Assembly: GCF_025854375.1 (NCBI RefSeq)
Contig: NZ_CP107575.1
Span: 124,001-188,000 of the forward strand
Length of the DNA stretch: 64,000 nt
From: Glutamicibacter sp. JL.03c
GTDB lineage: Bacteria; Actinomycetota; Actinomycetes; Actinomycetales; Micrococcaceae
Reading direction: 5' to 3'
Part shown: piece after piece, positions 10,304 to 36,133 of the stretch
Numbering within the stretch: position 1 is the first letter of the stretch
Layout: the number at the start of each line of letters is the position of its first letter
Translations under genes and position numbers: made by a program
The notes under the pieces: generated by a model
Databases searched by the model: none
Told to the model about the DNA's origin: nothing
Seen by the model: only the letters and a program-made list of their open reading frames with translations

Positions 10304-11083
10304 ATGGCAAAACGCATCGACGTCAAAGATTTGAACGTCTACTACTCCAAGTTCCTGGCCGTTGAGGGCGTCTCGATCAATATCGAGCCCAAGTCCGTCA
10401 CCGCCTTCATCGGCCCGTCGGGCTGCGGCAAGTCCACCTTCCTGCGCACCCTGAACCGCATGCACGAGGTCATTCCCGGCGGCCGCGTCGAGGGGCAGGT
10501 CCTGCTAGATGGGGACGACCTCTATGGTGCCGGTGTCGACCCGGTCACCGTGCGTAGCCAGATCGGCATGGTCTTCCAGCGCCCCAACCCGTTCCCGACC
10601 ATGTCCATCAAGGACAATGTGCTCGCCGGGGTGAAGCTGAATGGCACCAAGATCTCCCGTTCGGATGCCGATGACCTGGTGGAGAAGTCGTTGCGCGGCG
10701 CTAACCTGTGGAACGAGGTCAAGGACCGCCTGGACAAGCCGGGCTCGGGCCTGTCCGGCGGCCAGCAGCAGCGCTTGTGCATCGCCCGGACCATCGCGGT
10801 CAAGCCAGACGTGATCCTGATGGACGAGCCCTGCTCGGCATTGGACCCGATCTCCACCTTGGCCATCGAGGACTTGATCAACGAGCTGAAGAACGACTTC
10901 ACCGTGGTGATCGTGACCCACAACATGCAGCAGGCGGCCCGCGTCAGCGACAAGACCGCGTTCTTCAACATTGCCGGCACCGGCAAGCCGGGCAAGCTCA
11001 TCGAGTTCAACGACACCACCGCCATCTTCTCCAACCCGGAGCAGAAGGCCACCGAAGACTACGTCTCCGGACGCTTCGGATAA
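10304..11083 (+). CDS. pstB: phosphate ABC transporter ATP-binding protein
   Basis: The ATPase of the phosphate importer, 259 residues and full length. It shows Walker [10 protein letters not shown] near 33-41, the PstB-type Q-loop [11 protein letters not shown] near 88, the signature [13 protein letters not shown] near 148-160, Walker [14 protein letters not shown] near 169-181, and the switch histidine in VTHNM. It follows pstA by 45 bases. The last 465 bases of the gene and its terminator recur 22,654 bases downstream (see the direct repeats). Confidence 0.97.
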
Positions 11084-11205
11084 AGATTTCGGATATCGGC
11101 GCTTCTTGAAGTGGCGATAGACGAACCGGAAGGGGGGTCTTCCGGGGATCCTGGAGGGGATCACCGCCAACGGCGCACCAGTATTGGTGCGCCGTTGGTT
11201 TTTAA
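10619..11205 (+). repeat. left 587-bp direct repeat (pstB 3' part plus terminator)
   Basis: This segment recurs at 33273-33859, offset exactly 22,654 bases with no indels. I count four mismatches: T/G near 10703, C/T near 10830, C/A near 10857 and G/C near 11098. Both ends are sharp: the flanking bases differ immediately outside. It marks the left boundary of the accessory island. Confidence 0.95.
11167..11203 (+). terminator. pst operon terminator
   Basis: Perfect 14-bp stem (11167-11180 pairing with 11185-11198), GTAT loop and a T-run, 83 bases after the pstB stop. A strong intrinsic terminator, duplicated at 33821. Confidence 0.9.
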
Positions 11206-11214
11206 TCTGGCTGC

Positions 11215-11619
11215 ATGTCGGAACCGTCAGTGCAACGCATTATCGTCCGAGCGCGCTTCGACTCTGTGGGTTTTTCAACAGAGGAAGGGGGCCAGTTCGT
11301 AGTGGCAGAAATTCCCGCAGAGGTTTCAATTCCTGGTCACTGCATCGTTGACGGCGATTGGATGGAACAGTGCGGTGGCGGGTGGACTTGTGAAAGAATC
11401 ACCCGGTTTGGGAGCGATCCATTCGCTACGTCAGCACTGTCCAGCTCTGATGCATCAGAAAGTGGTTCGCTTAGCGGACCGTTGCTAACGGCACTGGGAA
11501 CCGTCGGTGCGGCTAACAGATCAGCGCTCGTCTCTACTGCTCGTGCTTCCCTTGGCCGGCGAAATCGGACTTCGCCGAAGCGCCCGTTAGTCGCGGTGTT
11601 GGAGACCAAGCCTGCGTAG
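11215..11619 (+). CDS. hypothetical protein at the island's left edge
   Basis: A 134-residue ORF whose ATG lies 9 bases inside the island. The first 65 residues look protein-like (IIVRARFDSVGFSTEEGG, FVVAEIPAEVSIPGHCIVDG); the rest is Ser/Ala/Arg-rich and may be non-coding. No clear Shine-Dalgarno sequence. Not recognised. It could be the start of a gene cut at the junction. Confidence 0.3.
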   Translation: MSEPSVQRIIVRARFDSVGFSTEEGGQFVVAEIPAEVSIPGHCIVDGDWMEQCGGGWTCERITRFGSDPFATSALSSSDASESGSLSGPLLTALGTVGAANRSALVSTARASLGRRNRTSPKRPLVAVLETKPA

Positions 11620-12773
11620 GATCCTAGAAATGGGACGGTGGCTATGGTGTTGCCGGGGATCTGCGACGTGGTATTTTCAGTGGCTCAAAGGGGCGAAACC
11701 CGGCTCAGAGGTTCAGGGCAGGGCTAAGCGGGAGGGACTTCAAATGAGTAGCCGGGGCCACGGGTTGGGTGCTCAAAGACATCATTTCGCAGCCCGGATC
11801 CCGGAACGCTACTTTTCCGTCGTCTGTGCCGACGAGGGCAAGGGTCTGCTATCCAGCGCACAATGCTGGCCGATGCCCAAGCGGTGGGCTGGTGGGCGCC
11901 GTGATAGTAGTTTCGCTTCAATCCGCGCTGTGCGGGTATTCTGCAACGCTGTTGGGCAAGCTCCATGCTGTGAGGAGGTCCATCACGGCATCATGATCTA
12001 GCCGGGACCGAGGAACCGCCGAAGTAGCGACGGATCTGTGCGACGTAGCCCATGATCCTTCCGCCTTTTTGGCGCTTCGGCAGTAATGGCCCAAACCGCA
12101 TCCACTCGCATGCCCGAAGTGGCTTAATCCTGGCCAGAGATCGAGATCTTGCGGAGGGCAGACCGGCATGGCGCCTGCTGTGACTTAGGCGTTGAATTCG
12201 TCTTATTCGTCCGTTTTCGCCGATTCTGGATTCATATCTGCGCTGCGCTGCATCGAGAAGCCGGGCAATCTGAGGTACCGGAACACCAAGGTGGCAAGCC
12301 GCGGTGGCGAGCAGCACAAAGATAGCGTCGGATCGGTCCGCTAAGACCATTCTCGGGCCGACTCAGGCCAAGGTGAAAGTACACTTGTTGTTCCCAGGCA
12401 CGTTGCGAACACGAGAGACAAAATGAAGACCTCCAGCCCGAGGAAGATGTCCACGTTCGTGGTGATCATCGCTCGCGCGCCTTTGTACTATTGTGTCTTC
12501 AGGGGTGGCAAACTGCCCTTCGAATGTTCTTGCATGCAGGTCATCCGGGGTTTCTAGGTTCGTGGCATCTCGATCTCTGATAAGCAATCGCCACGCTTCC
12601 ACACTCATCTCAAAGTTGACATCCGAAATTGACCGGCCTGCTGTTCCGATGATTCTGTGCGAATGACTTAAGCAATCCTTGTGCGGCATTGCAGCTCTAT
12701 CCATTCACATTGTTAATCGGAAGGCATGTTACCCGCCGGCAGATGCTGGTATCGGCTGCGGCGCGCTTTCTGG
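11620..12773 (-). other. gene-poor stretch with decayed transposase fragments
   Basis: No intact gene. On the minus strand, residues WRLLIRDRDATNLETPDDL (about 12530-12595) resemble the integrase-core signature LIRDRD-F-D of IS481/IS3-type transposases. An adjoining minus-strand frame near 12440-12480 reads ITTNVDIFLGLEV, reminiscent of an IS110 N-terminus, and 12240-12350 may continue it. All are broken by stops and frameshifts. I could not find terminal repeats. Confidence 0.35.
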
Positions 12774-13607
12774 TTATCGTTTTTGGCGCACGAATTCGAT
12801 CTGCGCACCGTAACCCTGTCTGGATTTGATGATGATTCGACCGTCGTCCTCGATGTAAGGTACGCCATTACTGCCGAGCAACTGCCGCACTGTGCCGAGC
12901 TTTGCGACGGATACCGAGTATCCGGTGAAGCCGTTGACGATGGCGCTAACGTCCACATCTATGTCGCCACCCTCGGCCAGCGGGTAGTGCATGCCGTTCT
13001 GGGTGCTTGCAACGCCGCTGTAAGCACTGAGGAACTTTTCGTGTTCCTCAGGTAGTTCCACGGCGAGGCGCACGCTGGCCACATTTCTGGCACCATTGGC
13101 GTGTTGCTGTAGTTTCGGGCTCCAAAAAGCTTCCGGGAAATGTTGCTGGCAGACGAAGAACGAGCAATTAGGAAGTCGTTCGTCGACGGCGAAAGCCAAG
13201 CTGAAAGCCACATGAGTTTCGCTGCCGTCGGCGGCAGTGCCTTTCCGCTCGAATGAAAACGGTTCAAAGGAGCCAATAGCGGACTGCGCATAGTGCTTCG
13301 CATCTACTTCCGCATTATCACTATCGAGAACCAGCATTCCGAGACCTTCGCCCTGTGCCTGATAATCGCGCACGAAAGCGCCGAAGCTGAAACGCTCTGG
13401 GGTGTGTTCACTGATTCCATCTTGAGCTGTCACCGTGATCAGTTCCAAGAACGAGGAACCCAATTGAATCACGTAATTCTCCGTACCCCACGGATGCCGG
13501 TTGCGAGATCCGACTGTGAAGCCAAGCTTCCGATAGAAATCGGCAGCTCCATCAAGGTCTTGCACTATCAAAACGAGATGGTCGATTCGCCGTTTTTTGT
13601 GAGTCAT
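12774..13607 (-). CDS. VOC superfamily (glyoxalase-like) protein
   Basis: A 277-residue protein with a glyoxalase-like fold: N-terminal RRIDHLVLIVQDLDGAADFYRKLGF carries the first metal-ligand-type histidine. A second module follows from about residue 160 (NVASVRLAVELPEEHEKFLSAYSG). It resembles the actinobacterial Glyoxalase-like domain family of about 270 residues, mostly uncharacterised; substrate unknown. Its ATG overlaps the TGA of the upstream amine oxidase (ATGA), so the two are translationally coupled and probably act on related compounds. This pair has no counterpart in the second locus at 45-52 kb. Confidence 0.75.
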   Translation of the reverse strand: MTHKKRRIDHLVLIVQDLDGAADFYRKLGFTVGSRNRHPWGTENYVIQLGSSFLELITVTAQDGISEHTPERFSFGAFVRDYQAQGEGLGMLVLDSDNAEVDAKHYAQSAIGSFEPFSFERKGTAADGSETHVAFSLAFAVDERLPNCSFFVCQQHFPEAFWSPKLQQHANGARNVASVRLAVELPEEHEKFLSAYSGVASTQNGMHYPLAEGGDIDVDVSAIVNGFTGYSVSVAKLGTVRQLLGSNGVPYIEDDGRIIIKSRQGYGAQIEFVRQKR

Positions 13608-14725
13608 TTTTTTACTCCATCCTTCCTGATAAGTTCTGTTGCTATATGGGCCGCATTTGTGCCTGCTTCTAAAGCACCTGCTAGGTATCCCGCTTCATGA
13701 TCGCTGACTTCGCTCCCGCCTAGAATTAGGCGTTCAGCCCAAACACCGTGCGTCCAAGCTTTCGCAGGAGCCGGGTGTCCGGACGATACCAAATCTTCGG
13801 TAGTAGATGTCAGCTCGTCAGCGGCCCAGTCCTTTAGCAGAATGCTTCTAGGAGTTGCGGCCTTCTGGCCGAAAACCCGGGTGAACTGTTCGAGGCAAGC
13901 TTCGGTCATTGCTTCCCTGCCCAGGCTTCTGCGATCTGTCGGCGCAATGCCGAGGAACCCCATCAGCGCAGCTTGCCCATGCGCGGTCGTGGCGTCGTGA
14001 ATCTCCGACATCGGGCCAGCTAAACTCTGTACAGTTCCCGATAGGCCGTCCTCACGCCAGAATGGCTGTTCATAGACGGCAATGAATTTCGCTTGAGACG
14101 CCATCCACGTGGGGGTGCTGCGCCACAACCCTACAGTTTCCGGATCAAGCTCAGGACCGTAAACGATGCTTGAAGCCAGCATCCGTGGAGGTGCGGCGGC
14201 AATCACGAAATCGACGTGGACGCTATCTTGAACCTTGGATGAATTCAGAAAGGTGACGTGTACCCCGTCCGATGTCAGTTCCAGATGTGTGACCGGCGCT
14301 TGGAGCACTAGAGAAGCGGCGGGCAGAGCATCGGCCAGACCTTGCACCAGCGCTGAAGTGCCACCTTTTATGCGTGCAGACCGTTGCGCTGCGGGGATGT
14401 CTTCGGTGGCTGTGTAGCGACGAGACGGTTCACGGGACATGCGCTCGAAGACAACATCTCCCTCGCTGTACTGGGTGAAAGTTTCGAGCCCGAGCTCTGC
14501 TATTGCTCGTTGCACAGCCGGTTGCGTAGCTGGCCAGACCCAGGAGGGACCCAAATCGAAGCCACCTGCCCGGCTCTCGCCCCCATCATTAAGGGTCAGC
14601 ACTCGACCGCCAAGCCTGTCTCGGCCTTCCAGCACTATAAAGGGTATTCCTGCTTCAGCTAGACCGCGTGCAGCGCAAAGGCCAGCGACTCCGGCACCGA
14701 TGATTGCAACTTGTACATCTTTCAC
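13604..14725 (-). CDS. FAD-dependent amine oxidase (flavin monoamine oxidase family), island copy 1
   Basis: A flavoprotein expected to oxidise an amine to an imine, giving aldehyde and H2O2. The dinucleotide-binding motif VAIIGAGVAGLCAARGLAEAG is followed by the GG doublet RLGGRV. The C-terminal flavin-contact region reads HGVWAERLILGGSEVSDHEAGYLAGALEAG. There is no C-terminal CGGCY-type cysteine, so FAD is probably non-covalent. The frame is open upstream to 14917, but that extension is not family-like, so I chose the GTG at 14725, just before the FAD motif; no good Shine-Dalgarno sequence is seen. About 373 residues. Diverged paralogue of the genes at 18420 and 50485. Confidence 0.75.
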   Translation of the reverse strand: MKDVQVAIIGAGVAGLCAARGLAEAGIPFIVLEGRDRLGGRVLTLNDGGESRAGGFDLGPSWVWPATQPAVQRAIAELGLETFTQYSEGDVVFERMSREPSRRYTATEDIPAAQRSARIKGGTSALVQGLADALPAASLVLQAPVTHLELTSDGVHVTFLNSSKVQDSVHVDFVIAAAPPRMLASSIVYGPELDPETVGLWRSTPTWMASQAKFIAVYEQPFWREDGLSGTVQSLAGPMSEIHDATTAHGQAALMGFLGIAPTDRRSLGREAMTEACLEQFTRVFGQKAATPRSILLKDWAADELTSTTEDLVSSGHPAPAKAWTHGVWAERLILGGSEVSDHEAGYLAGALEAGTNAAHIATELIRKDGVKK

Positions 14726-15292
14726 AGTTACTGACGTTAACAGCGGATGGGGGACGGCAGTACTTCTTGACAGCGAATGACAAGCGAGACAATTGACGGT
14801 CACGTTTGTTACGAGCAACAGAAGCATGCGCGCATTTCTCAGAGAGATAAGTCCACGTTCATCATTCTTCGTTTCACCTGAGAGTGCGTGGATTATCAAT
14901 GGTGGGAACGCGCACATTGATTGGAGCGCGATTCAGACCTTGTGACGCCTTGCTCCAGAACAGGTGGCCAAAGAACTTTTCTCTTCCAGATGCAGCAAGG
15001 ACAGTTTGAGCTGATCTCCAATTTCTATGTCCTATCCCTCCGCAGGGGTACCGTGAATTGTATGCTCGCCGACCTTTGGGCGCGTTGTTGGAGCGACATT
15101 CACAGTGTGCCGATAACACCACTGAGCTCATCACCGAGTGCAGAAAGCTTGACGACAGGTTCAGGAATCCATTTTTCGGATAACAGGCATGGCCGAGACC
15201 CCCGCTGATACCCCCAAAAAATGCAGCTGGCCTTCCCCACGAGACCACAGCGATGAACGCCAGCGGAGCATTTGCAGCTAGGCGCCTGCCTT
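14726..15292. other. intergenic stretch without a recognised gene
   Basis: Only the doubtful upstream extension of the amine oxidase frame (to 14917) and short unsupported ORFs. Around 15222-15262 a GCTGGCCTTC...GCCAGC pattern looks like a decayed version of the perfect terminator found after the homologous AhpD-like gene at 45572-45610. Confidence 0.5.
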
Positions 15293-15622
15293 CTAGTGCT
15301 GCGTGAAGAACTTCATGGCCTGCCAGCCGTGGGTCACAGCGGCACCTGCTCGCAGCGCAGTCGCGACCATGACAGTCTCAGCGAGTTCTTCTTCGCTGGC
15401 CCCGGCTTCGCGCGCTCCATTGGAGTGGGCTTCGAGGCAATACGGGCATTGCGTGGTCAGCGCGACCGCCACTGCCATCAGCTCGGTGTATTTCAGCGGG
15501 ATCGTTGCGTCGGGGTTGTTGAAGACGGCGTTGTCCAAGGCCTGGAATCCTTCGACAGCCTTCGGTGCTCCCTGACGCAGGTTGCGGAAGTATTGGTGGT
15601 CGGTGTGTTCGTGGTATGCCAT
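15293..15622 (-). CDS. AhpD-like carboxymuconolactone decarboxylase family protein (locus A)
   Basis: A 109-residue protein with the AhpD-type redox motif QCPYCLEAH near residues 59-67 (two cysteines plus histidine), as in alkylhydroperoxidase-like proteins. Expected to act as a small peroxidase or thiol-redox protein; substrate unknown. Nearly identical to the gene at 45624: about five substitutions over the shared 108 residues and a 143-bp identical DNA tract covering the gene start and upstream region. On the minus strand behind the ABM-like gene, within the LysR-led group. Confidence 0.85.
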   Translation of the reverse strand: MAYHEHTDHQYFRNLRQGAPKAVEGFQALDNAVFNNPDATIPLKYTELMAVAVALTTQCPYCLEAHSNGAREAGASEEELAETVMVATALRAGAAVTHGWQAMKFFTQH

Positions 15623-15873
15623 GCAAGCTTCTCCTGTCGTGGTGGTTGGTAATGGCTTGATCTATTCCAGCGGAGTGTGGAACAGGCGTGTGGTTTGCCG
15701 ATGCCGAGCGCTTCCATGCTACGAGAGAGGCTGGGGTCGGCATTAGTGGGCAGCGTGAATAGGCGCCTAGGGAGTGACGTGGTCTGCGATGGGTGCCGTG
15801 TCTAGGCCGTTGGTAGGCATGCAGATTGCGTCGTTCACTGCTCACGATGCTCTTCATAGCATTCAGCCAGCAA

Positions 15874-16155
15874 CTAGACGGTGTCGTAGATGCGAATTTC
15901 AGGCTCAGCCTTGAGAAATGCAGAAAGGCCGGCAACGACATCCTTCGTGAACAGTTCGGATGAAAGATAGGCCTTTGCGTTCTCCATGTTGTCGAATCCA
16001 TGGAAGACCTGGACATCTTCGTCTCGAGCTAGCAGCTCTTTGCTGATAGCACCAGGCACGGTATCGAGGAATGGCTGCTTGTACTTGGCGTATACACCGG
16101 CTGCAGCAATGCGGTCAGTTTCGTCGACCTTGAGTGTGATTTGCAGATATGCCAT
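15874..16155 (-). CDS. ABM-domain protein, putative quinol monooxygenase-like (locus A)
   Basis: A 93-residue small alpha/beta protein of the antibiotic-biosynthesis-monooxygenase (dimeric ferredoxin-like) fold: LQITLKVDE opens the first strand, and VFHGFDNMENAKAYLSS near 53-69 is the conserved His-Gly-Phe segment. Small ABM proteins oxidise quinols or act as auxiliary dimers. I chose the ATG at 16155 because GGAG lies seven bases upstream. The homologue at 46846 has lost this central segment. Between the LysR and AhpD-like genes. Confidence 0.75.
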   Translation of the reverse strand: MAYLQITLKVDETDRIAAAGVYAKYKQPFLDTVPGAISKELLARDEDVQVFHGFDNMENAKAYLSSELFTKDVVAGLSAFLKAEPEIRIYDTV

Positions 16156-16299
16156 GGAATACTCCATTCCGTTAGAGATATGTCGCGGCGACATCTTGCC
16201 GCACGTTCCCTAGGCTACGAGGCCCGAAGATATCTCCGGTAGATGAGTATAGTGAATGCAGCTATAGGGGATATGAATAGTAGTATTCAGCCAGAGAGA

Positions 16300-17199
16300 T
16301 CAGCTGGACGCCTTTATGAGCCGTTCGACGAGTCCCTCGAGTTCTGTCGCTGTAGAGGCAGTGGGATTCCAGATTGCCTCGTAGAATATCTCTACTAAGC
16401 ACCCATTTGAGTCAAGGACTTCTCGGTGGGTTGCCTGGGATGAGATGAGTTTGGACTTCGGGAGCATGGCGGACCCGAGGCCGAGAAGGGACCACTCTTC
16501 GAGTACTCGGTAGCTACCGGCTTCTCCTGGGTAGGCGGTAACATCAAGCTTGTTGTCCGCGATTAAACTGCGGGTAAAAGTAGTAAGACCGCAAGTATCA
16601 GGAAGCAAAATTAATTGTCGTCCCGAGAGTTCATCAAGATTAACCGGACCTTGTCCGGGTTGGGGCTCGATTAGTACCAGCGGCTCGGAATCAATAACGC
16701 GATGAGCATAACGTGGCATTGGCTCAACGGAAGGTACAACAATCAGATCGATGTCACCGGCGATCAATGAAGTGCGCAGTTCGCTCATGTTTGACTCGCG
16801 AAGGACGAGTTGCCGAGGTGAAGCCTGTTCAGGCTGATCATATACGGCCCTATAAGCACTCGCCACAAGTTTAGGATCAATGAGCGGGGAGACGCCAACG
16901 CGGATCGTATCTGTGGCGGGCCCAGTCCAGCGGGTGGCTTCGGCCCGAATGTCGTCGAGCGCTCCAAGGGCATGTTCGATTCGCGGCAGGATTGCTTCAC
17001 CAAATGCGGTTGGTGTCACTCCGCGGGGAGAACGATTAAATAGCTTTCCTCCGAGCGTCGTTTCCAGTTTGGCAATTCCGTTGGATAGAGCGGGCTGGGT
17101 GACGCCGTAGGCTTTCGCAGCAGCACTAAAAGATCCCGTTTCTGAAACGGCGCGAACATAGCGCATTCCTTCTGTACTTAAACGCTCAGCCATACACAT
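16300..17199 (-). CDS. LysR family transcriptional regulator (locus A)
   Basis: A 299-residue LysR regulator: N-terminal winged helix (MRYVRAVSETGSFSAAAKAYGVTQPALSNGIAKLE) and a periplasmic-binding-like effector domain from about residue 95. Divergent from the zinc alcohol dehydrogenase, the usual LysR target arrangement. An ATG at 17193 is an alternative start, but the Met-Cys-Met-Ala opening is kept in the paralogue at 47197. It probably controls both divergent arms. Confidence 0.9.
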   Translation of the reverse strand: MCMAERLSTEGMRYVRAVSETGSFSAAAKAYGVTQPALSNGIAKLETTLGGKLFNRSPRGVTPTAFGEAILPRIEHALGALDDIRAEATRWTGPATDTIRVGVSPLIDPKLVASAYRAVYDQPEQASPRQLVLRESNMSELRTSLIAGDIDLIVVPSVEPMPRYAHRVIDSEPLVLIEPQPGQGPVNLDELSGRQLILLPDTCGLTTFTRSLIADNKLDVTAYPGEAGSYRVLEEWSLLGLGSAMLPKSKLISSQATHREVLDSNGCLVEIFYEAIWNPTASTATELEGLVERLIKASS

Positions 17200-17233
17200 A
17201 TATTATCCGTCGATAATTGATTGTCATCTACTG
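17194..17233. promoter_or_regulatory. conserved LysR operator/promoter region (locus A)
   Basis: The dyad ATTATC-CGTC-GATAAT (17212-17227) has the size of a LysR box. A 40-base segment aligns without gaps to 48091-48130 in locus B, sharing ACACA, TTATC, GGAT/CGAT, TTG and TCTACTG. Conservation between diverged loci supports a functional operator. Confidence 0.6.
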
Positions 17234-17295
17234 ATGAGCTGCCAAAGCACGTACTCTTCTAGAAACATTGTTAGCAATAGAGGGAGTCGACATCG

Positions 17296-18333
17296 ATGTC
17301 TGTGACGACGATGATGAGAGTTCATACCACGGATGGGGACCTAAATGCTGACCAAGTTAAGTTTGACCCTCCATCTGAAGGATGGGTCACCATTGATGTT
17401 GTAGCCAGTGGAATGTGCCGCGCAGACCTTGGGACTGCTGCCGCGCGTGGAAAATCAGAGCCTGTCACTCCTGGACATGAAATCGCGGGATTCATTTCCG
17501 AAACTGGATCGGGAGTGAACGGATGGAAGGTCGGTGACCGAGTAGCTGTCGGATGGTTTGGCGGAAGTTGTGGTCATTGTCGCCATTGCCGGACAGGAGA
17601 CGTGGTGCATTGTGCAGAACGCCGAGTACCTGGGGTGAGCTATCCAGGAGGGTGGGCTACCCGCGTCCATGCCCCAGCGTCAGCACTTGCGCGTATCCCT
17701 GATGGCCTTGACTTCGTGGAAGCCGCTCCGATGGGGTGCGCGGGTGTCACGGTGTTTAACGCAGTACGTCATGAAGTGCGATCAACTGGTGCGAGAGTTG
17801 CAGTATTCGGAATCGGAGGCTTGGGACATCTAGCGATTCAGTTCGCTGCAGCGATGGGGCATCAAGTAATCGCCATCTCCCGGGGTCCTGAACGAGAAGA
17901 GGCTGCCCTCAATCTTGGGGCGGAGATGTACATAGACAGCAACGAGAATCTTCCGGGAGACGCGCTCAGGGAAATAGGGGGTGTCGATGCGATTATCAGT
18001 ACTGCATCATCGACCAAATCGGTAGCCGAACTATTGAATGGGCTACGACCTCATGGGCGCCTGGTCATGATTGGTGTTGACGCAGAGGCACTAGAACTTC
18101 CAGCGGGGCCGATTATTTCCCATGCGCTGTCGATCACAGGACATCTTACGGGTAGTCCCGCGGACACCGAACAAGCCATGGAGTTCGCAGTACGAAATAA
18201 TATTCGTCCGGTTGTTCAAACCTTTCCTCTGGTCCAAGCGCAGACCGCCCTAATCGTGCTTCGAGAAGGTCAAGCGAGATTCCGTCTCGTCCTTGTAAAC
18301 GAATCCCATGAGAAAACGCGGATGACAACGTAG
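17296..18333 (+). CDS. zinc-dependent alcohol dehydrogenase, MDR family (locus A)
   Basis: A 345-residue medium-chain NAD(P)-dependent dehydrogenase. Catalytic zinc ligands: CRAD near residue 38 and GHE near 60. The structural-zinc cysteines are in CGHCRHCRTGDVVHC near 89-103. Rossmann motif GIGGLGHLAIQFAAAMG near 172. It oxidises an alcohol or reduces an aldehyde; substrate unknown. First gene of the rightward arm. In locus B the equivalent gene is directly followed by an MFS gene, but here only 86 bases separate it from the amine oxidase, so the MFS has been lost or moved. Confidence 0.88.
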   Translation: MSVTTMMRVHTTDGDLNADQVKFDPPSEGWVTIDVVASGMCRADLGTAAARGKSEPVTPGHEIAGFISETGSGVNGWKVGDRVAVGWFGGSCGHCRHCRTGDVVHCAERRVPGVSYPGGWATRVHAPASALARIPDGLDFVEAAPMGCAGVTVFNAVRHEVRSTGARVAVFGIGGLGHLAIQFAAAMGHQVIAISRGPEREEAALNLGAEMYIDSNENLPGDALREIGGVDAIISTASSTKSVAELLNGLRPHGRLVMIGVDAEALELPAGPIISHALSITGHLTGSPADTEQAMEFAVRNNIRPVVQTFPLVQAQTALIVLREGQARFRLVLVNESHEKTRMTT

Positions 18334-18419
18334 CGAACGCATTCCTAAACCACCACTGAGGGGCTTCTATCTTCTAGAAATCCTGTGAAATAGACGAAAA
18401 CACTGAGAACCACGAAGTA

Positions 18420-19547: not shown

Positions 19548-20053
19548 ATTTCCTCACCAGTCCGCACAGATTCGTTTTAGGGTCGCATGAATGATTACAA
19601 CATAGTTCAACCACGGATATCACTGGAAGTGGCAGTTCATAGGGACTAGCCCAGATCTTTCAGCAGTTATCCAACTGCTGCCGGAATCCCGTACCAATGG
19701 ATTCTCGGCGGCCGTTCCTGATTCAGTCCGCGCCAAAGGGTGCCTGAGCCACCGACGCTGAATGCCAGGTTCCACGCACCCGGACCACACTAGCCTTTCA
19801 AAACCTAAGAAACAAGGGAATAGCTACTACCAATTCACGCAGCCAGCAATCCGTGCCGCCATCTCTGGAACAGCAAGTCAATATTCTGCTGAAGCTGGAC
19901 TGTAGCAAATCTTGTCAATAGGCATAGACGACCGACCTCGAACCGTTTTCAAAAGCGTCCGAGGTCGGTCTTCTGGTACCACCACGAATCCGGTATCGTG
20001 CAGGTACGTCTTGACGACAAACAAGGTCTGACTGATATCCGCGTGTTGGCTAA
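19548..20053. other. intergenic stretch with a terminator-like hairpin
   Basis: No gene recognised. An inverted repeat with perfect 11-bp arms (19930-19940 and 19960-19970) followed by TTCT could terminate transcription from the left. The stretch ends at the IS1380-like element. Confidence 0.5.
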
Positions 20054-20129
20054 CCCGGGTGTTTCATGATGAGCCCCGTCATTAACTGTCATTAAAAACG
20101 AAAGAGTGATCTGAACTGGGAAAATAAAG

Positions 20130-23274: not shown

Positions 23275-23486
23275 GAATATTGCTCCTTGGTGGTCGAGGA
23301 AGAGAAGATTCTGCCAATTCAGCGCAGAGATCTATTTGATGCTTGCGGCATTGATTTTTACCGCAAGGTATCGCGCTGGGTTTAGCTACACGTGGATTGC
23401 GTTAGATTCTTAAAGCAGCATGATTCAGGTTGTACGATTCTGAGTTCGGCACATCTAGAGTTGCTCACTTGTCATTGGAAACGCCA

Positions 23487-26165: not shown

Positions 26166-26279
26166 AGTATCTAGGATACAAGTAGAATTCTAGTTGTGCT
26201 ACTGAAAGAAGTTCTCAAGTATTCTGGGAATGGCACAGAGCACCCTCGTGTCGGTCTGAACAAGCAAGGAGGGCCTTTC

Positions 26280-26915
26280 GTGGCAGCCATTGAAGAACCT
26301 AGTGCGTCTCAGCGTGCTTATCAGTTGATTCGTGACGGGATTTTGGAAGGTGTTTACGCGCCAGGGAGCATGGTGGGTGAAGCCTCGCTGGCTAGGGAAT
26401 TTAGCCTTAGTCGCACTCCAGTGCGTCTGGCCCTTGGCCGGCTGCAACAAGAGGGGTGGATTGAGATTTTTCCGAAACGCGGCGCCCTTGTTAAAGGGCT
26501 AAATGAACGGCAAATTGCAGAGTTGGCGGATATTCGTTTGTTGCTGGAGTCTGTTTCAATTGCCGACGCTACGGATACCCAGCGCGATGACATTGCAACA
26601 CGACAGTTGGAATCGATAGAAGAGCAACTGCAAGCATTCAAAAACGAAGATCTGCCTCGCTTTGTAGATCTGACGATCAGGTTTCACCGAGGGTTTGTCG
26701 AAGCTGGAAATAACAGTATTCGTCTTGAACTCTACGACCGTTTGGCTGACCGCCATCGTTTCGCGCTCTTTGCTTCAGGTGAAACTTTGCAATCTCGTTG
26801 CGCGGAGATTATTGCAGAGCATCGGGCACTTGTTGAGCTGATGAGATCGAAGGATATCGAGGGGTTCGGCGCACGGCTTAAGCAGCATATGTCAGACAGC
26901 GGGGCTCTCAGTTAA
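26280..26915 (+). CDS. GntR family regulator (FadR/FCD subfamily)
   Basis: A 211-residue regulator with an N-terminal winged helix (AYQLIRDGILEGVYAPGSMVGEASLAREFSLSRTPVRLALGRL) and an FCD effector domain with metal-ligand-type residues (RFHRGFVEAGNN, AEHRALVELM). I chose the GTG at 26280 because AGGAGGG lies just upstream; the frame is open to 26196. Divergent from the DsbA-CcdA-BCAT operon, its likely target. The intergenic dyad GTATCTAGGATAC (26168-26180) is a possible operator. Confidence 0.88.
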   Translation: MAAIEEPSASQRAYQLIRDGILEGVYAPGSMVGEASLAREFSLSRTPVRLALGRLQQEGWIEIFPKRGALVKGLNERQIAELADIRLLLESVSIADATDTQRDDIATRQLESIEEQLQAFKNEDLPRFVDLTIRFHRGFVEAGNNSIRLELYDRLADRHRFALFASGETLQSRCAEIIAEHRALVELMRSKDIEGFGARLKQHMSDSGALS

Positions 26916-26921
26916 GCAACT

Positions 26922-27071
26922 TTATCTGTTGGTGGGTGGTTCGACAGCCGCGGGATACATGCATGCTTGGCAGACGAAAGCAAACAGGACGAGGCCAGCA
27001 AGGAACACGACAATGCCTACCACAAGCAGCTTTAACTGTGCGTTCACCCAAATGACTTGGAGAAGGTTCAT
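26922..27071 (-). CDS. small single-pass membrane protein
   Basis: A 49-residue ORF with one clear membrane segment (LKLLVVGIVVFLAGLVLFAFVC) and a short polar tail. The ATG at 27071 has GGAG nine bases upstream; a GTG at 27131 in the same frame is less well placed. It converges on the GntR gene 6 bases away and lies downstream of the permease terminator. Not recognised; it may be a small partner of the permease. Confidence 0.45.
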   Translation of the reverse strand: MNLLQVIWVNAQLKLLVVGIVVFLAGLVLFAFVCQACMYPAAVEPPTNR

Positions 27072-27170
27072 TCTCTGTGACTCCATCCGTGCAGGCGTTG
27101 AGAGCAATCTCTCTGCGAGCCTAATGGGCACTTCAGCGAAGATCGATACATATACAACGGCTTAAATGTA

Positions 27171-27223
27171 TGAAACTCCCGCGGGGAATTACGGCTTTTC
27201 GACATCCACCGCAGGAGTTTCAT
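27171..27223 (-). terminator. terminator after the APC permease
   Basis: Arms ATGAAACTCC-GCGG and CCGC-A-GGAGTTTCAT pair with a single bulge across a 24-base loop, directly after the permease stop codon. Confidence 0.6.
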
Positions 27224-27224
27224 T

Positions 27225-28622
27225 TCATGGTCGTGGTAATTCTGAATTACGCAACTGGACTTCTCTTTCCGCGAGTGTCTTTTTTACTGTTGGATAACGG
27301 AGCAACGCAATAGCTACACCGATCGCCAGCCAAACTGCAACCGCGACCCAAGCCCGAATATCGAAGTCACCAAGCAATAGATATCCCTGATAAAGACTCA
27401 ACGCTACCGATGCGAACACTAATGACACGTGCAATGTCAACGGCAACTTGAACGGTGAACGCTCATATAGTTTGGGGATCTTGTAACGCAGGAGTAACGA
27501 AGCCACCACCAGCACAGCGAACATAATCTGCACGAAGACTGATGCGGCTGTACCAATCACCGAAATATCAACTCCCACGGCAGCCGGCGTAATTCCCAAG
27601 ACGTAGAGGATTACCAAAAGCCAATGTGGAGTGCCAAAACGCTTATTCACTGAACCCAAACCCTTGGGTAGCCATCCATCATCGCTCGCAGCCAGAAGTG
27701 CTTTGGTGCCCCAGAGGAGTTCAGCGTTCATTGTGCTGATAATGGCGACGATTGCGCCAGCAAGGATGAAGAAGAGCCACATTCCATGGGGCAAGAACTC
27801 CTCCGCGACGGTGGACAGTGGTTCCCCGGCTACCCGATCGATGGGAAGCACTCCAGCTGCGGGCAATGCCACTGCCACATAGATCAAGCCGACCAACGCT
27901 GTGCCGCCAATCATTGCTAGAGGGATGTCGCGTCCTGGATTCTTCATTTCACGACCGAGCTCGGCCACGCCGTACGCCCCGGCCGTTGCGAAGGAGAGGA
28001 GCGCTGCGGCACTGAGAAGTTCAACGAAACCGTTTGGCATGACCTCTGGATAGATCGCCCAATTGACCTTCGACAGCCCAAAAGCTGCAAAGGTGCCAAA
28101 GCCGAGCAACATGAGGATCATCATGAACACCCCTAGTCGGGCTGACACGACCGATCCTGCGAGGTTGGCTACGAAGAAGATCGTGACCAAGGAGATTGCT
28201 ACCCAGGCTTCATTGAACCATGGGTTGATCGCGTGAAGGTAGGCTCCTGCGGCCAGACCATACAGGCTCAAGGATCCTTTGCCGAGCGCCAGCAACCAGG
28301 CGAGTAAGAATCCCGCCGAGGGGTGAATTAATCTCGCTGTCCAGGTGTAGCTACCACCTGCTGTAGGGTAAGCCGCGGCGAGTGCTGCATAGGGGATTGA
28401 ACTAATGATGACAGCAACAACAGCCAACACGTAAGCCACCGAGACACCGCCACCTGTCATGGCGATAGCAACGCCAGTCAGTGAGACGATGCCACCACCA
28501 ATGATCTGGTTGACCGAGATGCCGATGGCGCCAACAAGTGTGATGCTTCGTTTAAGGTTGTCCTGATTTCGGATAACTGGTGTAGTCCCTGACTCAGGAG
28601 GGGAATGTGTGCTTCTGCCCAT
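27225..28622 (-). CDS. APC family amino acid permease
   Basis: A 465-residue amino acid/polyamine transporter with about 12 membrane helices. The unwound helix 1 motif IGISVNQIIGGGIVSLTG near 34-51 is typical. ATG with GGAG eight bases upstream. It follows RidA by 14 bases and is the third gene of a C-S lyase-RidA-permease operon, so it probably imports the lyase's amino acid substrate. Exact substrate unknown. Confidence 0.88.
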   Translation of the reverse strand: MGRSTHSPPESGTTPVIRNQDNLKRSITLVGAIGISVNQIIGGGIVSLTGVAIAMTGGGVSVAYVLAVVAVIISSIPYAALAAAYPTAGGSYTWTARLIHPSAGFLLAWLLALGKGSLSLYGLAAGAYLHAINPWFNEAWVAISLVTIFFVANLAGSVVSARLGVFMMILMLLGFGTFAAFGLSKVNWAIYPEVMPNGFVELLSAAALLSFATAGAYGVAELGREMKNPGRDIPLAMIGGTALVGLIYVAVALPAAGVLPIDRVAGEPLSTVAEEFLPHGMWLFFILAGAIVAIISTMNAELLWGTKALLAASDDGWLPKGLGSVNKRFGTPHWLLVILYVLGITPAAVGVDISVIGTAASVFVQIMFAVLVVASLLLRYKIPKLYERSPFKLPLTLHVSLVFASVALSLYQGYLLLGDFDIRAWVAVAVWLAIGVAIALLRYPTVKKTLAEREVQLRNSELPRP

Positions 28623-28636
28623 GGGTCTGCTCCTGT

Positions 28637-29128
28637 TCAGGCTTGAAGATCCGCTGGCGTTGGGGCGATATTGAAGATTGCTTCAACTTCAACCGTGGCG
28701 TTGAATGGTAAGCTGGCAACACCGACCGCCGAACGACTGTGTTCACCGATAGACCCCAATACTTTGGTAAAAAGCTCAGATGCAGCGTTGGCCACCACAT
28801 GTTGCTCTGAGAAACCGCAGGCTGACGAGACGAAAACCGTGATTTTCGCCAGATGCTCTACCTTTTCAAGGGAACCCAATGCTGCTTTGGCCTGGGCGAG
28901 AACCTGAATGGCACAGTGCTTCGCGGCTTCTTGCGCATCGCGGATAGTCACGTCACCGCCAACTTGGCCTAGTGTGGTAATCAATCCGTTCTCGAGTGGA
29001 AGCTGGCCAGAAACGAAGAGTTGTGAGCCGGTATTGAGTGCGGGGCGATAGATACCCGCCGATGCCGCGGAAATTTCTGGAAGCACGAGATCCAGCTGCT
29101 CTAGACGTTGAGTAATTGTTTCGGTCAT
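28637..29128 (-). CDS. RidA family enamine/imine deaminase
   Basis: A 163-residue member of the RidA (YjgF/UK114) family, which hydrolyses reactive enamines such as 2-aminoacrylate. This longer subgroup has SQLFVSGQLPLENG near 33-46 and the C-terminal RSAVGVASLPFNATVEVEAI, with the family arginine in the RSAVGV position. Its ATG overlaps the stop of the lyase gene (ATGA). PatB-type lyases release 2-aminoacrylate, so the pairing is functionally coherent. Confidence 0.9.
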   Translation of the reverse strand: MTETITQRLEQLDLVLPEISAASAGIYRPALNTGSQLFVSGQLPLENGLITTLGQVGGDVTIRDAQEAAKHCAIQVLAQAKAALGSLEKVEHLAKITVFVSSACGFSEQHVVANAASELFTKVLGSIGEHSRSAVGVASLPFNATVEVEAIFNIAPTPADLQA

Positions 29129-30366
29129 GGTCGTTCCTTGAGTCGGTTAACTGCGGTAATGATTCGATTGACGGCATCCTCGACGATGCTTCGAGGACAT
29201 CCGAGGTTGACACGCATGTAGCCGTGTCCTTGCAGGCCGAATTTCTGCCCCTGATCGAGCCAGACGCGAGCCTCAATAAGCATGAATTTCTTCAGCTCGT
29301 CGGCGCTAAGGCCCAGACCCCGACAATCCATCCAGGCAAGATAGAGAGAATCAGCCGGCAGGACTTTCAGTTCTGGAATGCTGGAGTTGATTGCCTGGGC
29401 GAAGTATTCGTGGTTGCCGCGGACGTAATCGAGCATTTGTTCCAGCCATGGCTCTCCGTGGGTGTAGGCCGCTTCGGCTGCGACCATGCCTAGCGTGTTG
29501 ACCAACGGGAACATGTTGCGGTCGTACTGTCGCTGGAGCTCGGCGCGTAGCCTGGCATTAGGGGTAATGATGTTTGCGCTCTGAAGCCCAGGTAAGTTGA
29601 AGGTCTTGCTTGGCGCTGTGCATGTAATGGAGTTCTGTGCGTAGTCCTCGCCAAGGGTCGCAAAGGGAATATGCTTCTTATCAGGGTTCATGATGAGGTC
29701 TTCATGGATCTCATCGGAAATCACGATAATTCCGTGACGTGCACAGATATCACCCATGGTGCGCAGTTCTTCCTCACTCCACACATTGCCAGTTGGATTA
29801 TGGGGGTTGCTCAGGATGAAAAGTTTGGTATCCGGCGTGATGGCTTGCTCGAAAATTTTCGCGTCGAAACTGTACCCTACTTCGGTGCGAACGAGTGGAG
29901 CGAGGGCTAGATGGCGCCCATTGAGTTTCACGTCATCATGGAAATGCGCGTAAACCGGAGGTTGGATCAAGACCGTGTCGCCGGGGGCGCTGAACGCCTG
30001 TACTGCCGTTTTCAATGTGGTGATGATCCCTGCCGCTTGCATAATCCACTCCGGCATGACGTTCCAGCCGAAGCGTTTACGTTGCCAGGAAATGACTGCG
30101 TTTGTATAGCTTTCGGTAGGGCCTGCCGGATAGCCGAAGACACCATGGTCAATTGCCTGGTGCAAAGCGTCGAGGACTTCTTTCGGTGCCTTGAAATCGG
30201 TGTCTGCGACCCACATCGGCAAGGGGTTTGCGGCGGCTTCCTCTGCTGAGAGCATTGCTTTCGCGCTAGCCCACTTCATGGAATTTGTGGGTTCGCGGTC
30301 AATTACTTCATCGAAGACGTTGAGTCCTGATTTCGTATGTTCTCGTGGCTCGGTCAGGGAGGTCAT
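29125..30366 (-). CDS. PatB/MalY-type PLP-dependent C-S lyase (aminotransferase class I fold)
   Basis: A 413-residue fold-type I PLP enzyme of the MalY/PatB group, which cleaves cystathionine-like C-S bonds to thiol, pyruvate and ammonia via aminoacrylate. Motifs: MWVADTDFKAPKEV near 60, LSNPHNPTGNVW near 170, and the PLP lysine in TAPSKTFNLPGLQ near 243. The frame is open to 30468, but the ATG at 30366 has GAAAGGA at good spacing. First gene of the lyase-RidA-APC operon; divergent from the Lrp gene. Confidence 0.88.
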   Translation of the reverse strand: MTSLTEPREHTKSGLNVFDEVIDREPTNSMKWASAKAMLSAEEAAANPLPMWVADTDFKAPKEVLDALHQAIDHGVFGYPAGPTESYTNAVISWQRKRFGWNVMPEWIMQAAGIITTLKTAVQAFSAPGDTVLIQPPVYAHFHDDVKLNGRHLALAPLVRTEVGYSFDAKIFEQAITPDTKLFILSNPHNPTGNVWSEEELRTMGDICARHGIIVISDEIHEDLIMNPDKKHIPFATLGEDYAQNSITCTAPSKTFNLPGLQSANIITPNARLRAELQRQYDRNMFPLVNTLGMVAAEAAYTHGEPWLEQMLDYVRGNHEYFAQAINSSIPELKVLPADSLYLAWMDCRGLGLSADELKKFMLIEARVWLDQGQKFGLQGHGYMRVNLGCPRSIVEDAVNRIITAVNRLKERP

Positions 30367-30479
30367 TGGTTGTCCTTTCGGTGAACATTCTGTGATGCGT
30401 AACACTGTAGGTACTATTTGGAGCAAGGTGTTGTTGTCTTTTGGGTGGCAACGGAGTGTAAATGGCAAGGAATGTGTGA

Positions 30480-30965
30480 ATGGACAGCATTGATCGAAAA
30501 ATTATTGCCGCACTGCAGCAGGATGGCCGTATGACCCTCACGGAACTGGCGAAACGTGTGCAGCTAAGCCTCTCTCGATGCCAAAGGAGAGTGCGTGATC
30601 TGGAAGAGAGTGGAGTGATTCTTGGATACGGTGCTCAAGTCAGCGCTGCTGCCGTGGGCTTCGGATTTGAGGTGCTAGCTTTTGCCACATTGTCGCAGCC
30701 TGATGATGTGTTGAATTTTGATGCTGCACTAATCGAGGTGCCCGAGATTATCGAGGCGCAGCGATTGTTTGGAACGCCTGACTATATGTTGCGTATCGTT
30801 TCTGAAAGCAGGGAAACGTACCAGAAGCTCTATGACGAAGTTTTGTGCAAATTACCTGGGCTGGCGGGATTGAGTTCGACAATTGTGATGAAGCAGACAG
30901 TGGTTCCCCGAGGGCTGCCGCTACATGATCGATCTCTCAGGTCAAGCCGGCATTACAGGGCCTGA
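30480..30965 (+). CDS. Lrp/AsnC family transcriptional regulator
   Basis: A 161-residue regulator: HTH at residues 1-50 (DRKIIAALQQDGRMTLTELAKRVQLSLSRCQRRVRDLEESG) and a C-terminal RAM ligand-binding domain. Divergent from the C-S lyase operon across 113 bases; TGTGATGCGTAACA (30391-30404) there is an imperfect dyad of Lrp-box size. It probably activates the lyase operon in response to its amino acid substrate. Confidence 0.9.
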   Translation: MDSIDRKIIAALQQDGRMTLTELAKRVQLSLSRCQRRVRDLEESGVILGYGAQVSAAAVGFGFEVLAFATLSQPDDVLNFDAALIEVPEIIEAQRLFGTPDYMLRIVSESRETYQKLYDEVLCKLPGLAGLSSTIVMKQTVVPRGLPLHDRSLRSSRHYRA

Positions 30966-30985
30966 GTTTATATTTTTAGGCATGT

Positions 30986-31008
30986 CTGGGATACATGATG
31001 TATCCCAG
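30986..31008. promoter_or_regulatory. perfect 23-base palindrome before the MFS gene
   Basis: CTGGGATACAT, central G, ATGTATCCCAG: 11-base arms with no mismatch, 73 bases ahead of the MFS start. No T-run follows, so an operator is likelier than a terminator. The cognate regulator is unknown; GATAC/GTATC half-sites also occur upstream of the island's GntR gene. Confidence 0.6.
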
Positions 31009-31081
31009 TTTCGTCTAGACTGTTCAATGCAGGCCTAACTCCGAGCGGCTTGTCCTGAAGGGTAGTGGAAGGCGAAAGATC

Positions 31082-32368
31082 ATGCGTGAACCGAGGCAAC
31101 TAATACACGGGTCAGAATTGAAAGGCGATGGCGATCATTGGCGTCGGCGCATTCAGAAGCGTACCGTGTGGATTCTTGCGATTACTCAGGTCGTTGGCAC
31201 AGTGGGGGTTGGCGTCGCCCCCTCTATTGGAATTCTGTTAGCCGAGGAAGTGACTTCTAACGAAGCCTGGGCGGGACTTGCCCGTACTGCGAGCACACTT
31301 GGTGCAGCTCTTTTGGGGTTGCCACTGGGAAATCTTGCCGCTCGATTTGGTCGCAGGGTCGCTCTGACCAGTGGATGGTGGATCGCAGCGCTGGGTGGTC
31401 TGTTGTTGGTCCCTGCTGCCCAGTATGAGCAGGTTGTCCTCCTTTTTGTGGGGTTGTTGCTCATCGGTTCGGGGTCGGCAATCAGTTTGCAGGCTCGTTT
31501 CGCCGCGACAGACTTGGCTGCTGACGCGCATAAGGGCCGTAGCTTGGCGTTGATCGTTTGGGTGGGAACCATTGGTAATGTGTTGGGGCCCAACCTTGGC
31601 ATTCCTGGTAGGATACTTGGCTCGGTCATTGGTCTTAACGTTTATGCCGGAGCCTTTTTAATTGCTGGAGTATGCATGTTCGCGGCTGGGGCACTGGTCT
31701 TTATGTTCCTCCGTCCGGACCCTCTTATGCTGCTTCAGCGCCACGAGTTACAAGCACGCCCGGCGGCAGTCCCTGCTCGATCAAAGGGAAGCTTCAAGCG
31801 GATTTTCCAAGAACTCAAGATCAATAAACGGGCGCGATATGCGGTATTCGCGATCCTCAGCGCACAAGTCGTCATGGTCTCAGTCATGACTATGACCCCT
31901 GTGCATATTACCCATCACGGCGGCTCGGTGACTCTGGTTGGATTCACTATCTCCCTGCACATTCTTGGCATGTATGCGCTGGCTCCGGTAGTCGGGCACA
32001 TCACGGACCGGTTCGGCCACCGAATCTCCATTATTTTGGGTTTGGTACTTTTCGCTGGATCCTTGATTTCCGGGGGATTGTGGCCAACCGACATGAATTG
32101 GATCATGACTAGTTTGATTATGCTGGGCTTGGGCTGGTCCTTTGTGAATGTTGCTGGTTCGGCGCTTTTTTCAACTGTCGTTTCCGACGAAACCCGGGCG
32201 TCGGCCCAGGGCGGGGTAGATGCGTTATCTAACCTTTGTGGGGCCATAGCGGCCTTCGTGGCTGGCCCGTTGCTCATGTTTACTTCTTTCTCAACACTGA
32301 CGGTAATTGCGGCGATTGTCCTATTGCCACTGACGGCGCAGACCGTTTTTCGTCCTCACTCAGCTTGA
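31082..32368 (+). CDS. MFS transporter (locus A, displaced)
   Basis: A 428-residue 12-helix major facilitator protein. The motif near residues 85-92 reads GNLAARFGRR (signature motif A type). Clearly homologous to the MFS gene at 49226 over the whole length (shared VGTVGVGVAPSIGILLA, NEAWAGLARTASTLGAAL and SLQARFAATDLA). In locus B that gene sits between dehydrogenase and amine oxidase; here it is 12.7 kb from its partners. Substrate unknown. Confidence 0.88.
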   Translation: MREPRQLIHGSELKGDGDHWRRRIQKRTVWILAITQVVGTVGVGVAPSIGILLAEEVTSNEAWAGLARTASTLGAALLGLPLGNLAARFGRRVALTSGWWIAALGGLLLVPAAQYEQVVLLFVGLLLIGSGSAISLQARFAATDLAADAHKGRSLALIVWVGTIGNVLGPNLGIPGRILGSVIGLNVYAGAFLIAGVCMFAAGALVFMFLRPDPLMLLQRHELQARPAAVPARSKGSFKRIFQELKINKRARYAVFAILSAQVVMVSVMTMTPVHITHHGGSVTLVGFTISLHILGMYALAPVVGHITDRFGHRISIILGLVLFAGSLISGGLWPTDMNWIMTSLIMLGLGWSFVNVAGSALFSTVVSDETRASAQGGVDALSNLCGAIAAFVAGPLLMFTSFSTLTVIAAIVLLPLTAQTVFRPHSA

Positions 32369-32393
32369 AGGAGTTGAGCGTGGTGCAACGCGC

Positions 32394-33272
32394 TCAGCTG
32401 GGAAGTGGCCCGTGCATGCATGAGAGTATCCGAAGTCGGTGAAGTTCATGATTCCTGCGGCCGTGGCAATTCCGGCTCAGACTTGCAGTCGACGGATTCG
32501 CCGCATCGTCGCGGGCGCAAGTCAGCTTGATTCGCATGGAGGGCATCGCCTCCATCAGCCATGGGCAGCGGCATTCGTGAAAACGGCGTCGCCTCGAACA
32601 TTCTGTTGGGTTGTACGCACCGCTCAAGCGCAAGGCAGTGAGACTGAAAGCCGCATATATCCAATTCTTCCAGGAGCTGCCCCCCTGTTCCTGGGTCGCA
32701 TAGAGGCCCTTGAGGCCAAGAACGGGTTCCGCCACCAGCTTCGACCGCCCTTTCGGCTTGATAAAGAGGAATTCCGGGTTGAATGTGATCGACTTCGGAT
32801 TTCTTGAGTCGAATCCTTAGCCTTGCCTCTATGTTTGCGAACCTCGTGGGAACTGCGTTGACGCACCTGCCTGACTATTAAATTCACTCGTTGGCTCATA
32901 TGGAAATGATCAGCGATGAACTTTGCCTTCGGCAGATGTGGCCGCGCCGTCTGATGGAATTCCGTGGATACTTCTATCGCGACGCACTGGACTCGTCGGC
33001 GCAACTGCCGTGGCCAGAACTGCTGTCAATTCTCCGAACCCGCACCGCGGTACCGTCCTCGAAATTCTGTCTCTTGCCCGAGTCCAGATCTGCGAACACG
33101 ATCGATCGCGACCCTATGCACTCCGCCATCCCGCCTCTGCCGCGCGTGCTTGCTGGACCACGCCGAACCAATGCTCGTCAAGCTCAATTAGCGGATGAAA
33201 ATATGGTTCACGCAACGAGGGACCGGCGGATGATCTTGAGCATTGCCGAGCCACTCGGGTACGTTTGAGGAA
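32394..33272 (-). pseudogene. ISL3 family transposase remnant, 5'-truncated and frameshifted
   Basis: On the minus strand, pieces of an ISL3 transposase follow in order: IELDEHWFGVVQQARA (about 33190), FADLDSGKRQNFEDGTAVRVR in another frame, then VQCVAIEVSTEFHQTARPHLPKAKFIADHFHMSQRVN with the family's DHFH motif (about 32900-33000), and a degenerate C-terminus. The N-terminal zinc-finger/HTH part is absent: the frame is cut at the pstB repeat junction at 33272/33273. Confidence 0.7.
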
Positions 33273-33737
33273 GTGCTCGCCGGGGTGAAGCTGAATGGCA
33301 CCAAGATCTCCCGTTCGGATGCCGATGACCTGGTGGAGAAGTCGTTGCGCGGCGCGAACCTGTGGAACGAGGTCAAGGACCGCCTGGACAAGCCGGGCTC
33401 GGGCCTGTCCGGCGGCCAGCAGCAGCGCTTGTGCATCGCCCGGACCATCGCGGTCAAGCCAGACGTGATCCTGATGGACGAGCCTTGCTCGGCATTGGAC
33501 CCGATCTCCACATTGGCCATCGAGGACTTGATCAACGAGCTGAAGAACGACTTCACCGTGGTGATCGTGACCCACAACATGCAGCAGGCGGCCCGCGTCA
33601 GCGACAAGACCGCGTTCTTCAACATTGCCGGCACCGGCAAGCCGGGCAAGCTCATCGAGTTCAACGACACCACCGCCATCTTCTCCAACCCGGAGCAGAA
33701 GGCCACCGAAGACTACGTCTCCGGACGCTTCGGATAA
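33273..33737 (+). pseudogene. pstB: pstB remnant lacking the 5' part
   Basis: Encodes only the C-terminal 154 residues of PstB, including the ABC signature, Walker B and the switch histidine. The Walker A region is missing, so it cannot be a functional ATPase. An ATG at 33243 could start a hybrid 164-residue product but has no support. Confidence 0.95.
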
Positions 33738-33820
33738 AGATTTCGGATATCGCCGCTTCTTGAAGTGGCGATAGACGAACCGGAAGGGGGGTCTTCCGGG
33801 GATCCTGGAGGGGATCACCG

Positions 33821-33857
33821 CCAACGGCGCACCAGTATTGGTGCGCCGTTGGTTTTT
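33821..33857 (+). terminator. duplicated pst terminator
   Basis: Same perfect 14-bp stem, GTAT loop and T-run as at 11167; 84 bases after the remnant's stop codon. Confidence 0.9.
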
Positions 33858-33862
33858 AAGCC

Positions 33863-36128: not shown

Positions 36129-36133
36129 CGGCC

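Follow-up and report, generated by a model that had tools for sequence, protein, structure and literature searches.

A 22-kb gene island between direct repeats of pstB in Glutamicibacter sp. JL.03c and its possible origin by single-crossover insertion

Four described systems come closest to the locus considered here, a gene island lying beside pstB, which encodes the phosphate ABC transporter ATPase, in Glutamicibacter sp. JL.03c. The analysed window comprises 64,000 nucleotides (C1:124001-188000) of a genome assembled as one contig of 3,586,856 bases, and positions below refer to this window. During conjugation in E. coli, as the available excerpt of PMC3240628 describes, linear DNA undergoes partial degradation and ligation before a single crossover integrates it, leaving part of the target gene duplicated around the inserted DNA without an integrase, an outcome ten times commoner than homology-facilitated illegitimate recombination. 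The same arrangement is found here, although the E. coli case involved a laboratory plasmid and lacZ, whereas here a natural gene block is known by its footprint alone. Homology-facilitated illegitimate recombination, as proposed for type VI secretion system arrays of Vibrio in the excerpted account of PMC5361080, has one homologous and one illegitimate end, as may also be the case here, and leaves an old gene end downstream, but there it concerns effector-immunity modules, in contrast to a housekeeping ATPase with a 22-kb block. Pneumococcal merodiploids produced by transformation (PMC3784515, in part) likewise involve duplication through alternative pairing of incoming DNA, but their duplications span ~100-900 kb and are bordered by pre-existing repeats. 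The megacircle of Burkholderia thailandensis (PMC6350997, in part) is comparable as a circular chromosomal segment re-inserting beside a matching copy, but it has insertion sequence (IS) copies at both ends and needs a transposase, whereas the edge relics here belong to different families. Literature on integrase-free islands, merodiploids, this genus, Campbell-type islands and pstB islands yielded nothing on this locus; the types of mechanism are already known and the case is new, leaving basic views of recombination unchanged.

Comparison of the window with itself by BLASTN confirmed the direct repeats described in the first-pass annotation, located at 10619-11205 and 33273-33859 (both plus strand), 587 bp long and 99.32% identical, with four mismatches, no gaps and an offset of 22,654. 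Each copy covers pstB from codon 106 to the stop, followed by an inverted repeat and a T-run interpreted as a terminator; identity collapses just beyond the block. The left copy forms the end of an intact pstB (10304-11083, plus strand, 259 aa), whose match to the ABC_tran profile covers positions 2-136. The right copy is a 5'-truncated pstB starting at codon 106 and followed by the terminator; its open reading frame (ORF) matches ABC_tran only over 79-136, so that the Walker A part is missing, as had been noted. Across the whole genome, only these two copies exceed ~105 matching bases to pstB, and no third was found. Between them lies the island proper (11206-33272, 22,067 bp), whose G+C content is 53-57%, compared with 63-64% in its near flanks, although 51,700-64,000 likewise has 53%. 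At 33272/33273, a novel joint connects island DNA to pstB codon 106.

The mismatches, at 10702, 10831, 10858 and 11099, had been attributed to a different donor strain, and they do look allelic. At the first three sites the third codon base differs without altering the amino acid (Ala133, Pro176 and Thr185, respectively), while the fourth lies in the small inverted repeat past the pstB stop, which is perfect in the right copy and one base off in the left. Comparison with 17 relatives in the genus was clear-cut at 11099, where the right-copy base occurs in 17/17 and the left-copy base in none. A mixed picture emerged at the other sites, with the left- and right-copy bases found in 0 and 7 relatives at 10702, 3 and 7 at 10831, and 11 and 2 at 10858. 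Because all three coding mismatches are synonymous, and because the right copy at 11099 carries the base of every relative while the left copy breaks the inverted repeat, the mismatches suggest alleles from two strains, although four sites prove little on this point and no clean assignment of the copies follows from the other three.

Relatives possess the site without the island. All 17 have one pstB match each at E 1e-40 or better, and a query in which the pstB 5' portion was fused to the right repeat and the DNA following it aligned unbroken with relative G001 over 4,341 columns at 84%, leaving the island out. This alignment provides the empty site that had been proposed as a check and, together with the XRE regulator at 34906-35103 (HTH_3, E 2e-16), bears out the native order of pstB, terminator and membrane/XRE operon. 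The regulator is preceded by two small ORFs that lack a Pfam match and, by eye, look membrane-bound. A PHO4/Pit gene lies downstream of pstB in 17/17 relatives; measured from the pstB start, its near end is no more than 2.8 kb away in 13 of them and 4.9-5.7 kb away in the remaining 4. A small-ORF homologue also lies downstream in every relative, and the distance from the pstB start to its own start is at most 1.6 kb in 15, 2.2 kb in G009 and 5.0 kb in G005. Island DNA gave no BLASTN match at E 1e-5 in the ~11-kb stretches starting at pstB in the 17 relatives, none of which carries island DNA there. Since the Pit and small-ORF spacing varies and the island is unmatched there, the interval downstream of pstB takes up DNA in other species, though not island DNA. 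Elsewhere in the genus, island DNA matched IS pieces, FabH, MFS, GntR and AhpD-like genes, and weaker single places. The nearest species compared is 94% identical in pstB, and the comparison therefore includes no strain as close as a donor or sibling would be. Repeated loss is less likely than insertion on this branch, even though the repeats would allow the island to be lost precisely. The locus thus displays two marks of a single-crossover insertion-duplication, namely direct repeats with one truncated copy and an empty site with one intact pstB in 17/17 genus genomes.

Within the family, a pstB footprint of this type seems to be rare. With a threshold of E 1e-40, pstB is matched in 291 of 295 family genomes and matched twice in 10, comprising this genome, seven in which pstB is accompanied by a distant partial match at 70-73% identity, and two with adjacent near-full copies. 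A truncated 3' second copy occurs in 0/290 other family genomes with a pstB match at this threshold, which more diverged or shorter copies would escape. The idea of pstB as a duplication hotspot was rejected, as none of the nine other two-match genomes has a truncated 3' copy. The two genomes with near-full copies (G021:C26 and G051:C126) belong to one genus, and their copies lie 4.5 and 5.2 kb apart.

Both edges of the island carry transposase relics. On the left is a decayed IS110-family relic (11738-12600, minus strand, edges given by the aligned stretch), and on the right a decayed ISL3-family relic (32423-33212, minus strand), whose transposase is cut short on the side facing the right repeat and whose similarity ends at 33212, 60 bp short of the joint. 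Compared with two related copies, the ISL3 relic has 15 and 20 indels in ~790 bp, against 1 in 789 bp and 0 in 516 bp for two control pairs of related copies and 0 in the 587-bp repeat. The IS110 relic has 36 indels and an internal IS1380 relic 21, each against one copy and without a control pair. Because lesions are far more numerous in the relics than in the 99.3%-identical repeats, the island DNA looks older than the repeat and seems to have decayed long before the repeat arose, barring gene conversion; with such early decay, the island was probably a long-time resident of some chromosome, not a fresh mobile element.

The reported absence of an integrase held, as a genome profile search at E up to 1 placed neither a tyrosine integrase nor a resolvase match within the island (0.135-0.157 Mb) or close to it. 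Three PF00589 matches start at 0.557, 1.192 and 1.584 Mb, resolvase matches occur at 2.309 Mb, and the nearest integrase match lies ~399 kb from the island. Among 20 island ORFs scanned with Pfam (two being pieces of one transposase and two without match, with smaller ORFs outside the scan), none was recognised as a plasmid, replication, partition, conjugation or phage gene. In PLSDB, at megablast sensitivity and with records very near this genome possibly left out there, no record covered more than 8% of the stretch; 17 records matched, mostly through pstB genes, the best being an IS1380 copy on a Glutamicibacter nicotianae plasmid (86.7%, 8% of the query), and this coverage speaks against a plasmid origin. 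The joint was also rejected as an IS end, since 33180-33272 scored 23, whereas 200 shuffles reached up to 30, and the ISL3 similarity ends before it. A composite transposon or translocatable unit is not indicated, the left relic being IS110, the right ISL3 and both decayed, and an IS-borne circle was rejected on the same difference of families. Of the two parental sequences by which microhomology at the joint could be judged, the pstB one is known, and the island one can be read as far as 33272. The joint pattern had 0 exact matches in viral contigs, which says little about a circular form.

The explanation favoured here, at a rough probability of 0.5, is that the two ends of a linear chromosome piece from a close strain were joined, after which a single crossover in pstB integrated it. 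We infer that the donor, a strain of this species or of one very close to it, had the island adjoining pstB, and that a linear chromosome fragment of ~22.65 kb, with one end in pstB (codon 106) and the other near the ISL3 relic, entered an island-free cell. Its ends would then have been joined into a circle, the joint being the present 33272/33273 boundary, and one homologous crossover between the circle's 587 bp of pstB and the resident pstB would have inserted it. This would have restored a complete pstB on the left and placed a headless one to the right of the island, ahead of the native downstream genes. Two random ends of one linear fragment would give such a joint, which falls within pstB on one side and 60 bp beyond the last recognisable ISL3 similarity on the other. 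A circularised chromosomal fragment fits better than a resident plasmid because no plasmid gene was recognised among the 20 ORFs, PLSDB cover is at most 8%, and the joint links mid-pstB to truncated ISL3 surroundings. The first-pass interpretation, single-crossover integration of a circular molecule, is therefore partly supported and correct in outline: the repeats have single-crossover geometry, and the incoming molecule may have been circular, though a linear route is also conceivable.

Several points weigh against this history. Neither a circle nor a donor strain or sibling genome was observed, the donor order of pstB followed by the island derives from the left junction alone, four mismatches are too few to place the crossover, and the precedent comes from E. 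coli, outside this group. Additionally, the synonymy of all three coding mismatches is a weak signal, expected by chance at roughly 2-4% by our own arithmetic. Part of the relic indel counts is alignment noise between distant copies, and gene conversion between the repeats could hold them alike, masking their age.

Less likely, but a serious competitor, is homology-facilitated illegitimate recombination in the reverse direction. A linear fragment from an island-free strain, starting at pstB codon 106, would have entered a chromosome already ordered as pstB, island and native genes, with homology to the native downstream region serving as its anchor and its other end illegitimately joined near the ISL3 relic. 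The right end of the island would have been lost and the headless pstB gained, making the repeat a scar of partial replacement, not of insertion. Such a history involves a single event without a circle and fewer steps for the repeat itself, accounting jointly for the truncated ISL3 relic, the headless pstB, the allelic mismatches and the island's apparent age. The right copy carries the base of 17/17 relatives at 11099, in keeping with such a history, but this base suits the favoured explanation equally. The 33272/33273 joint fits an illegitimate join, while the homologous end is not placeable. The excerpts report the process in three competent species and E. coli (PMC3240628) and propose it for displaced genes in Vibrio cholerae arrays (PMC5361080). 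This genome matches the Competence (ComEC-type) family, which lends weak support, as 12 of 14 control genomes match too. Conversely, the island's first arrival is left unexplained, and in the excerpt of PMC3240628 the process is rarer in E. coli than ligation with a single crossover and yields inserts and deletions of ~1 kb on average. End joining followed by one pstB crossover is ranked above it because of this tenfold E. coli ratio and because it accounts for the arrival of the island.

Unequal exchange, in which a linear donor fragment pairs with two sister chromatids as in the pneumococcal merodiploids, is improbable: it yields a duplication without a circle (PMC3784515, in part), but the model uses repeats pre-existing at two places, and here only pstB is shared, so that an illegitimate join is still needed. 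The odds are very slender for a site-specific integrative element (prophage, integrative and conjugative element, or integrative and mobilizable element) that brought a replacement pstB 3' end and later lost its integrase. Certain integrative elements do bring a replacement 3' gene end, but no tyrosine or serine recombinase match lies nearby, no conjugation or phage gene is present among the scanned ORFs, and short att repeats are absent, the 587-bp repeat far exceeding an att core. Equally slight is the prospect of an assembly artefact, a free 22,654-bp circle or collapsed repeat misplaced into the chromosome: although both junctions rest on the assembly, without reads, the genome is a single contig, the copies differ at four places with distinct flanks, and no replication gene was recognised among the scanned ORFs.

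The locus is a natural example, cleanly preserved, of an island gained or trimmed through homologous recombination and one illegitimate joint, and this signature, a 5'-truncated gene duplicate at an island edge, can be scanned for elsewhere. Tentatively, and at odds a little short of even, a ~22.65-kb chromosome piece from a close strain, cut at random points, circularised and inserted by one crossover could represent an integrase-free transfer route for whole catabolic clusters, with a headless gene as its sole mark. The 587-bp repeats should also allow RecA to delete the island precisely, and the trait may be unstable.

The island begins with a 134-aa ORF at its left edge (11215-11619, plus strand) that has no Pfam match and is present in only one of 396 genomes of the order, its own. 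Beyond the IS110 relic, a first half of apparently catabolic genes (12774-19547) encodes a glyoxalase-like protein, amine oxidase 1, a CMD/AhpD-like protein, a small protein, a LysR regulator, a zinc alcohol dehydrogenase and amine oxidase 2. The small protein (15874-16194) has no Pfam or NCBIfam match and is presumably monooxygenase-like. The first amine oxidase was matched at E 1e-60, a search excluding weaker homologues, in one of 295 family genomes, its own. A broken IS1380-type transposase (DDE_Tnp_1_4 pieces) with adjoining IS fragments occupies 19647-22204, followed by FabH, a branched-chain aminotransferase (IlvE), a DsbD/CcdA-like and a DsbA/thioredoxin-like protein (22324-26165, minus strand). 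The second catabolic half (26196-32368) contains GntR, an amino acid permease, RidA, a PatB-family C-S lyase (429.8 bits, cut-off 340), Lrp/AsnC and an MFS transporter. This cargo leads us to infer catabolism of a beta-substituted, perhaps S-substituted, amino acid.

In named genomes, the loci of the best C-S lyase relatives share varying parts of this gene set. Counting the two amine oxidases as one, 11 distinct island genes occur in Arthrobacter sp. NtRootA1 (L066) and Leucobacter ruminantium (L074), 10 in Arthrobacter sp. SW1 (L057), 9 in Sinomonas humi (L058) and 7 in Brevibacterium celere (L082). Among the matches listed, 24 of 52 lyase loci contain the lyase alone or with Lrp; alcohol dehydrogenase is found in 19 of the 52, RidA and Lrp in 17 each, amine oxidase in 15, IlvE in 4 and DsbA in 2, while FabH, DsbD-like and glyoxalase-like genes occur in none, contig ends cutting some loci. 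These counts speak against a tight universal cluster. A link between the C-S lyase cluster and pstB was rejected, as loci L057-L136 contain no PstB match at E 1e-40.

A partly similar gene set is located on a Rhizobium tropici plasmid, and, among the matches listed, PatB-type lyases 64-75% identical to that of the island occur on 17 plasmids (H18-H34), mostly rhizobial. The source of these plasmids was Mimosa, Leucaena, Calliandra, Acaciella or Vachellia in 8 and Phaseolus in 5, which hints at a legume amino acid as substrate; the literature, including the available part of PMC9269122, settled nothing on mimosine or djenkolate.

A second cluster at 45570-51609 (G+C 66%) contains homologues of the island's AhpD, LysR, alcohol dehydrogenase, MFS and amine oxidase genes and is ~70% alike in the aligned LysR-alcohol dehydrogenase and MFS stretches. 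The AhpD-like genes at 15224-15653 and 45570-45999 are 90% identical against 70.5% in the adjoining LysR-alcohol dehydrogenase stretch, hinting at local gene conversion or separate transfer. The island's FabH gene (22324-23274), the second in the genome, has 88% DNA identity to a gene of relative G017 and 80% to the genome's other copy; that it serves as a spare target against an inhibitor would be speculation.

Downstream of the right repeat, the native segment (33860-39160) comprises the two small ORFs, the XRE regulator, the PHO4/Pit transporter and its partner, an MFS gene, one more gene and tRNA-Lys (39087-39160). Synteny with relatives ends at or within ~130 bp past the tRNA-Lys 3' end, a gene at 39301-40221 matches a Mutator-family transposase, and the DNA past tRNA-Lys may be a separate acquired region.

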